From Fidelibacterota bacterium (lineage in GTDB: Bacteria > Fidelibacterota > UBA8477 > JABMPR01), in NCBI GenBank assembly GCA_021734255.1, contig JAIPJM010000002.1, forward strand, positions 62,001 through 126,000: a stretch of 64,000 nucleotides of DNA. The letters run 5' to 3'. Of this stretch, positions 51,811 through 52,405 are shown in pieces. The notes beneath the pieces were generated by a model. The model did no database searches and was not told the origin of the DNA. It saw nothing but the letters and a program-made list of their open reading frames with translations. How positions within the stretch are numbered: the first letter of the stretch is position 1; each line of letters starts with the position of its first letter. Both the position numbers and the translations under genes were made by a program.

Positions 51811-52188
51811 GGGGCCGTAGCTTCCGCCTACGTCTAGACTTCGGCGGGACAGGCAGCTTCGCTACTCTGATGGTTTTGAGCTACACAACTGTGTTCATCA
51901 GTTTATCGGTTTGGACATATCAGGGTGATCAATATTGGGGCCGTAGCTTCCGCCTACGTCAAGACTTCGGCGGGACAGGCAACTTCGCTACTCTGATGGT
52001 TTTGAGCCACACAACTGTGTTCATCAGTTTATCGGTTTGGACATATCAGAGTGATCAATAATGGGGCCGTAGCTTCCGCCTACGTCAAGACTTCGGCGGG
52101 ACAGGCAACTTCGCTACTCTGATGGTTTTGAGCCATACAACTGTGTTCATCAGTTTATCGGTTTGGACATATCAGAGTGATCAATAAT
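51811..52188 (+). repeat. Three tandem 126-bp repeats abutting the tRNA-Ala gene
   Basis: Units start at 51811, 51937 and 52063, and the tRNA starts at 52189, exactly one period later. Every unit and the tRNA begin with GGGGCCGTAGCT. Units 2 and 3 differ by one base and unit 1 differs from unit 2 by five, so the copies nearest the tRNA are the newest. Each unit contains a REP-like inverted repeat (CCGCC and GGCGG about 13 bases apart, inside GTAGC and GCTAC). The last 80 bases are A/T-rich and end AATAAT or AATATT before the next GGGG. Because 126 is divisible by three the array reads as an open frame; I consider that fortuitous. Confidence 0.95.
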
Positions 52189-52261
52189 GGGGCCGTAGCT
52201 CAGTTGGGAGAGCGCTGCGTTCGCAACGCAGAGGTCAGGAGTTCGATCCTCCTCGGCTCCA
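52189..52261 (+). tRNA. tRNA-Ala (anticodon CGC)
   Basis: Full cloverleaf of 73 bases: acceptor GGGGCCG with CGGCTCC, D stem GCTC/GAGC, anticodon stem CTGCG/CGCAG with loop TTCGCAA (anticodon CGC, reading GCG), T stem AGGAG/CTCCT with TTCGATC, and discriminator A. The acceptor contains G3 opposite T70, the G3:U70 identity pair of alanine tRNAs. CCA is not encoded. The gene is preceded by the 126-bp array whose units copy its first 12 bases. Confidence 0.97.
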
Positions 52262-52405
52262 CTAAAATTCCTATTATTTCACTCATTTAGAGCACATTTC
52301 AGGTTTCGGATGGAGCCCATTATTTATACATTGGGTGGCTTTACTATATGGGTAACAAAACACATACAAAATATATACACGCAATTGATAAAGGAATCTT
52401 ACAAC

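Follow-up and report, generated by a model that had tools for sequence, protein, structure and literature searches.

What places repeated copies of the start of a tRNA gene directly in front of that gene? The question is raised by the functional tRNA-Ala(CGC) gene (52189-52262, + strand; ARAGORN; Rfam tRNA, 67 bits) of a MAG of Candidatus Neomarinimicrobiota, now Fidelibacterota, a phylum of marine bacteria; among named organisms, its nearest named relatives show 71-74% aminopeptidase identity. "The window" denotes here the whole stretch of 64,000 nucleotides that was analysed, and positions are counted from its first letter. The gene is preceded by an array of three 126-bp units on the + strand, delimited by TRF and by comparison of the units: unit 1, the outermost (51811-51936), unit 2 (51937-52062) and unit 3 (52063-52188), which abuts the tRNA. 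TRF reports a period of 126, 3.1 copies, 97% matches and a score of 742. Units 2 and 3 differ at one position, while unit 1 differs from them at five and six positions, respectively. All three units and the tRNA begin with GGGGCCGTAGCT, and an identical leader (...GTGATCAATAAT/ATT) precedes units 2 and 3 and the tRNA, whereas the bases preceding unit 1 differ. An earlier note, made from the DNA letters alone, had described units that end at the tRNA start in the same phase, are most alike near the tRNA and, except for the first, follow near-identical A/T bases; coordinates, TRF and unit comparison bear this out, and we judge its conclusion that the array grew in tandem at the tRNA edge to be right. 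The neighbouring genes encode an amidase, a class-III aminotransferase, an M17 leucyl aminopeptidase and PlsX. A promoter scan of the + strand of the window gave nothing convincing, and the array locus matches no Rfam family other than tRNA.

Each unit consists of GGGGCCGTAGCT, a 31-nt hairpin, the segment CAACTTCGCTAC, a hairpin of ~60 nt and the A/T-rich leader TGATCAATAAT, in this order. Nucleotides 1-12 of tRNA-Ala are copied with 12/12 identity at 51811-51822, 51937-51948 and 52063-52074. The 31-nt insert, TCCGCC-TACGTCAAGACTTC-GGCGGGACAGG, lies at 51823-51853 in unit 1 and at 51949-51979 and 52075-52105 in units 2 and 3, at the point where tRNA nt 12 and 13 would meet; its limits follow from an alignment with ten other tRNA loci and from matches to the covariance model R1 described below. 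Behind it, the post-insert remnant CAACTTCGCTAC (51854-51865, 51980-51991, 52106-52117) is made up of the D-arm CAG/CAA and a right arm, CTTCGCTAC, which is complementary to part of tRNA-Ala nt 6-11. Congeners keep CAGTTGGGAACCCAACTTCGC at the remnant position of their Ala-CGC copy. The second hairpin is longer and imperfect (CTCTGATGG...CATATCAGAG; by its fold, 51991-52051 in unit 2) and specific to the Ala-CGC locus. By repeat comparison, the leader occupies 52052-52062 before unit 3 and 52178-52188 before the tRNA. The earlier note was thus right that every unit carries a REP-like inverted repeat and the first 12 bases of the tRNA, but the likeness to the tRNA goes further: the unit copies the tRNA in truncated form, with nt 1-12, an insert, then nt 13 onwards. 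Two other readings were tried against this anatomy and rejected. An ordinary transposon that duplicated a 12-bp target site does not fit, since the unit resumes with tRNA nt 13 after the hairpin; nor does a tRNA intron, since the tRNA copies are incomplete, a whole tRNA stands behind them and Rfam matches that tRNA alone.

The array is not peculiar to tRNA-Ala. Searched against the whole genome, it finds matches on other contigs adjoining other tRNA genes. The survey of this genome drew on such searches and on the stretches surrounding tRNA genes and matches; in total 11 of the 39 tRNA genes carry upstream composite copies, single or arrayed. The other arrays are 4x130 bp at Arg-CCG, 4x57 bp at Pro-GGG and 2x84 bp at Met. 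At each locus the hairpin is fused to the first 12 bases of the local tRNA, not to those of tRNA-Ala: GCACCCGTAGCT at Arg-ACG, GCGCCCGTAGCT (four times) at Arg-CCG, CGGAACGTGGCG (four times) at Pro-GGG and GGGCCCATAGCT at Met. With up to one mismatch allowed, ten of the 39 tRNAs have their own nt 1-12 within 800 nt upstream, none has them downstream and none on the other strand, and in a control the 12-mers of foreign tRNAs match 9 of 1306 upstream flanks, so the upstream copies are not due to chance, and the earlier note was right to link the units to the tRNA. Ser-CGA, with a 10-nt copy, is the eleventh locus. All 20 composite copies in the genome contain the hairpin, and all stand at tRNA genes; only seven weak hairpin-only matches occur beside them, so the unit is not one that is found at many non-tRNA sites without its tRNA part. 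Upstream of the 39 tRNAs we saw no partial tRNA copy free of a hairpin.

A second type of copy occurs downstream of tRNA genes, at Pro-GGG, Lys-CTT, Ala-GGC, Ser-GGA, Ser-CGA, Val-CAC and Leu-CAG. These copies reproduce the tRNA 3' end exactly, over about 9-18 nt, and stand behind hairpins. At Lys-CTT they recur ~244 bp apart, and a terminator-like hairpin follows the copies.

A covariance model, R1, was built from the 11 loci of this genome. Since the tRNA part belongs to the model, the survey of relatives counts too few sites that have the hairpin alone and would miss tRNAs preceded by hairpins of other families; the genomes searched are draft MAGs, and the R1 E-values are rough. Among 60 genomes, R1 has full-length matches in most congeners, and the composite is found in 14 of the 18; among 245 genomes of the phylum, 43 match, in 20 of 84 genera. 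The earlier note had proposed to search the genome and its relatives; such searches find the composite at 11 tRNA genes of this genome and elsewhere in the phylum. Of 55 stretches from relatives, nearly all those with enough flank have a tRNA gene on the same strand 1-184 nt downstream. Among 55 element-tRNA pairs, our own loci included, 36 copies are identical to their tRNA at 12/12 bases and 41 at 11 or more, and in 16 of 20 further stretches from other families a copy with at least 11/12 identity stands directly before its tRNA. Arrays recur as well: 3x57 bp (Thr), 4x74 bp (Arg), 5x95 bp (Phe), 4x70 bp (Arg) and 3x103 bp (Asp), those in other families being built of identical units that keep phase with the tRNA. 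Among 30 genomes reached via other loci, the composite occurs only in genomes that turned out to belong to the same phylum (places already matched in the phylum search, or entries labelled FCB or marine bacterium); 26 others, outside the phylum, yielded no composite and one weak hairpin-only match.

The composite follows one plan: the first 12 nucleotides of its own tRNA, a hairpin of 20-45 nt (TCC...GGACAGG) and then the tRNA from nt 13 to about nt 14-35, the similarity ending anywhere in this range. Among 75 parsed copies from the phylum, the insert starts with TCC in 64 and with CCC in seven, ends most commonly in GGACAGG or GGACAAG (GGACARG), and is directly followed by CAG or CAA in 71. 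In Ser-CGA, where the CAG lies two bases further 5', the insert comes after nt 10 and again stands before CAG. The insertion target is thus a sequence, ^CAR, and not a position. The inserts are mostly 19-46 nt long, 67 of 71 fold better than shuffled versions, and their stems vary with compensating pairs (at stem position 5, C-G in 23, T-A in 20 and G-C in 11). Of 72 elements, 19 have a right arm complementary to tRNA nt 6-11, where chance would give 4.3. The ratio of G-T to A-C mismatches (43 vs 12), tried as a test of RNA versus DNA structure, was dropped because it is driven mostly by one outer position. In the congener G015, a single point of the tRNA copy at each of Lys-TTT, Arg-CCG and Val-GAC is occupied by two or three different hairpins arranged head to tail, and at Arg-ACG of the congener G007 the hairpin apex is replaced by a different palindrome or repeat, which indicates that hairpins arrive repeatedly and sit in loops.

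Comparison of congeners at the Ala-CGC locus reveals both gain and loss: three units in the genome of the window, two in G015, where the outer one is decayed, one in G006 and G013, degraded remnants in G012 and G001, and no recognisable copy in G002, G003, G005, G007, G010 and G017. What copies there are follow their own tRNA. At columns of nt 1-12 that vary between species, they match it in 27 of 34 cases against 14.7 when shuffled, a value reached in none of 2000 shuffles, which ignore relatedness. At Arg-ACG, nt 6 of the tRNA is C, G or A depending on the species, and the copy follows each change, as does the complementary right arm. The bases of the leader are often alike before the copy and before the tRNA at the loci compared. 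Near-whole pseudo-tRNAs with extra hairpins in the anticodon arm occur at Val-TAC, Ala-GGC and Val-GAC (the last in G006/G007); they keep the D-arm and the start of the T-arm, with a palindrome, TCCCGACA...TGTCGGGA, in place of the anticodon arm. Such pseudo-tRNAs, together with the variable point at which tRNA similarity stops, are expected from decay. In G001, two contigs (L270 and L274) carry the same tRNA-Ala(CGC) with a 53-nt leader, and a GIY-YIG element follows one of them only; the pair is possibly a fresh tandem duplicate or an assembly-graph effect.

The reading that we favour, if by no wide measure of confidence, is that the array consists of broken tRNA-Ala copies: tandem duplicates of the tRNA gene that were interrupted by REP-like hairpins, decayed, and were amplified and homogenised by slippage. 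From the comparison of loci we infer the following order of events. The tRNA gene would first have been duplicated in tandem together with a short leader. A REP-like hairpin of ~20-45 nt would then have entered one copy directly before the D-arm CAG/CAA, and the broken copy would have decayed until hardly anything remained beyond its 5' end, the hairpin and a portion of the D-loop. The leader and nt 1-12, present in both the broken copy and the intact tRNA, would now make up a direct repeat of ~20 bp, on which slippage or unequal exchange could gain or lose whole units in phase with the tRNA. This turnover would recopy the current first bases of the tRNA into the units, which would explain why the units match the tRNA and why those nearest to it are the youngest; growth in phase with the tRNA would likewise account for the deviating leader being confined to the first unit. 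An essential role of the copies is improbable, given that they are missing from several congeners at the Ala-CGC locus. Two observations sit less easily with the proposal. Separate duplication and insertion should also leave partial copies without a hairpin, and the lack of any upstream of the 39 tRNAs suggests that the hairpin may itself cause the duplication. Furthermore, old loci with a single copy, such as Arg-ACG, keep the 12-nt copy better than the sequence around it; slippage is a less obvious cause there, and constraint would account for the preservation equally well.

The first of these observations lends some weight to a one-step origin, in which a site-specific mobile hairpin inserts before CAG/CAA of a working tRNA and the same event restores an intact tRNA downstream. 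Such a hairpin would be REP-like, its mover possibly a single-strand transposase or another enzyme. The precise ends and target of the insert, the repeated arrivals seen in G015 and G007, and the presence of the hairpin in every upstream copy, a tighter link than the slippage model needs, keep this origin in play as a minority reading. Three Y1 transposase genes (strong PF01797 matches) are present in the genome, but none is flanked by the hairpin, for which reason RAYT genes were rejected as its source; moreover, at many loci the leader of the tRNA does not recur ahead of the first unit, and an empty site with a clean junction was not found. A role of the units in RNA is a weaker contender still. 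A tRNA-like 5' end with its hairpin could tune maturation of the pre-tRNA by competing for RNase P or for the acceptor 3' strand. The minimum-free-energy fold of the last unit with the tRNA is predicted to pair the copy with the acceptor 3' strand, so that the decoy 5' ends suggested in the earlier note are possible, and of 54 loci, 10 have CGCTTT-like, promoter-like discriminators before the first copy and one has them before the tRNA, so the units are probably transcribed. The earlier note's duplicated promoter-leader survives in part: leader bases are duplicated, but the promoter-like sequence stands before the first copy. The tracking of the own tRNA, the complementarity of the right arm and the folding of the inserts also agree with a function in the leader, though hairpins may be palindromic for any reason. 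Copy number, by contrast, is erratic (1-5), and a needed role is unlikely, as the copy is unrecognisable in six congeners and degraded in two at Ala-CGC, and copies stand at only 11 of the 39 tRNAs here. The more specific version, a lineage-wide tRNA-mimic leader RNA whose hairpin-closed second 5' end regulates the maturation of its own tRNA and whose match is kept by selection, we regard as similarly improbable.

Integrating elements classically enter tRNA genes and leave partial tRNA copies as scars, so attachment-site scars of a prophage or integrative element had to be considered. At this locus, however, the copies are 5' and not 3' fragments, have an internal insert and are in tandem; 5' copies occur solely upstream, and no integrase is found among the array neighbours. 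In a phage collection only the tRNA itself matches the array query, and in a plasmid collection the array has no match outside the tRNA. We therefore give scars of this kind hardly any credence. Scars of an element that targets the tRNA remain the best-fitting of the three readings in the earlier note, in the sense of hairpin insertions into duplicated tRNA genes. Short-read assembly could in principle have produced the array, and contigs of several congeners do break at tRNA genes, yet the units differ by 1-6 bases, the array is embedded in a contig of 200 kb, and dozens of assemblies show this architecture at independent loci; an artefact is therefore very improbable.

tRNA genes are usually regarded either as stable genes or as places where large elements dock. 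The loci described here point to a third, phylum-wide fate, in which tRNA ends are held in tandem hairpin-broken repeats that would turn over in phase with the gene. On the practical side, tRNA finders and short-read assemblies can err at hairpin-broken tRNA loci.

In the open-licence literature we found no description of bacterial tRNA 5'-end repeats with hairpins, but several known systems share parts of their anatomy. REP elements are GTAG- and CGTC-tagged palindromes associated with RAYT transposases (PMC3733652). Like them, the present hairpins are short palindromes (20-40 bp) with variable loops that occur in tandem or nested, in a genome with Y1 transposase genes. They have no GTAG or CGTC tag of their own: the GTAG that precedes the hairpin belongs to the tRNA, as its nt 7-10, and varies with it (TTAG, ATAG, TTGG, GTGG). 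As they are neither tagged nor dispersed away from tRNA genes nor found in the flanks of the transposase genes, membership of the REP/RAYT group fails, and at most the hairpins behave like REP insertions. Palindromic elements of Rickettsia likewise interrupt genes (PMC3733652), but their hosts are many protein genes, whereas the host here is a duplicated, non-functional piece of tRNA. In phage T6, the GIY-YIG nuclease SegB, encoded next to tRNA genes, drives the formation of tandem tRNA copies via microhomology at 5' ends (PMC13096335). GIY-YIG genes adjoin tRNAs in the genome of the window, too (3 of 15 within 1 kb, P 0.008), but none is present at the array of the window, so that such elements were rejected as its direct cause and are a lead only. 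Small GIY-YIG genes, some of them broken, lie directly 3' of tRNAs or pseudo-tRNAs (G000 C5:96805, C22:154184 and C59:24150; L261, L262, L270 and L049), where the tRNA end frequently bears a conserved hairpin (GAGGCTTCGTTCGAA...); in some congeners a GIY-YIG element directly follows tRNA-Ala(CGC) on its 3' side.

The nearest known system is that of the 178-bp repeats at tyrT/tyrV of E. coli (rttR/tpr region), for which RNA or protein products have been reported; rttR and tpr are annotated at the locus. In E. coli K-12 (1286000-1288500), five exact 19-mers of the tRNA-Tyr 3' end lie downstream of tyrT, one of which is the end of tyrV. The repeat unit reads AAGGTTCGA[hairpin-rich insert]ATCCTTCCCCCACCACCA, i.e. 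the T-arm is split in the T-loop after TTCGA and the exact 19-nt 3' end follows. The tyrT-tyrV spacer also holds a hairpin-split T-arm repeat. As in the window, the units are in tandem, are in phase with the tRNA end and each contain an exact piece of the tRNA, and the 3'-side copies at Pro-GGG and Val-CAC share the E. coli anatomy with its hairpin in the T-loop. Unlike the E. coli repeats, which concern one tRNA and its 3' side, those described here lie mainly on the 5' side, have their insert in the D-arm, involve many tRNAs throughout a phylum and contain a different hairpin sequence; at the locus of the window it is the 5' end that is copied, upstream and with a D-arm insert, and the 3' type is found at other tRNAs of the same genome. 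By analogy, the 5' form here and the 3' form in E. coli may represent two sides of one process with a common mechanism. The tyrT repeats thereby gain a large comparison set with defined insertion points, in the D-arm before CAG/CAA on the 5' side and in the T-loop after TTCGA on the 3' side, against which slippage, hairpin transposition and RNA function become testable as origins of tyrT-type repeats.
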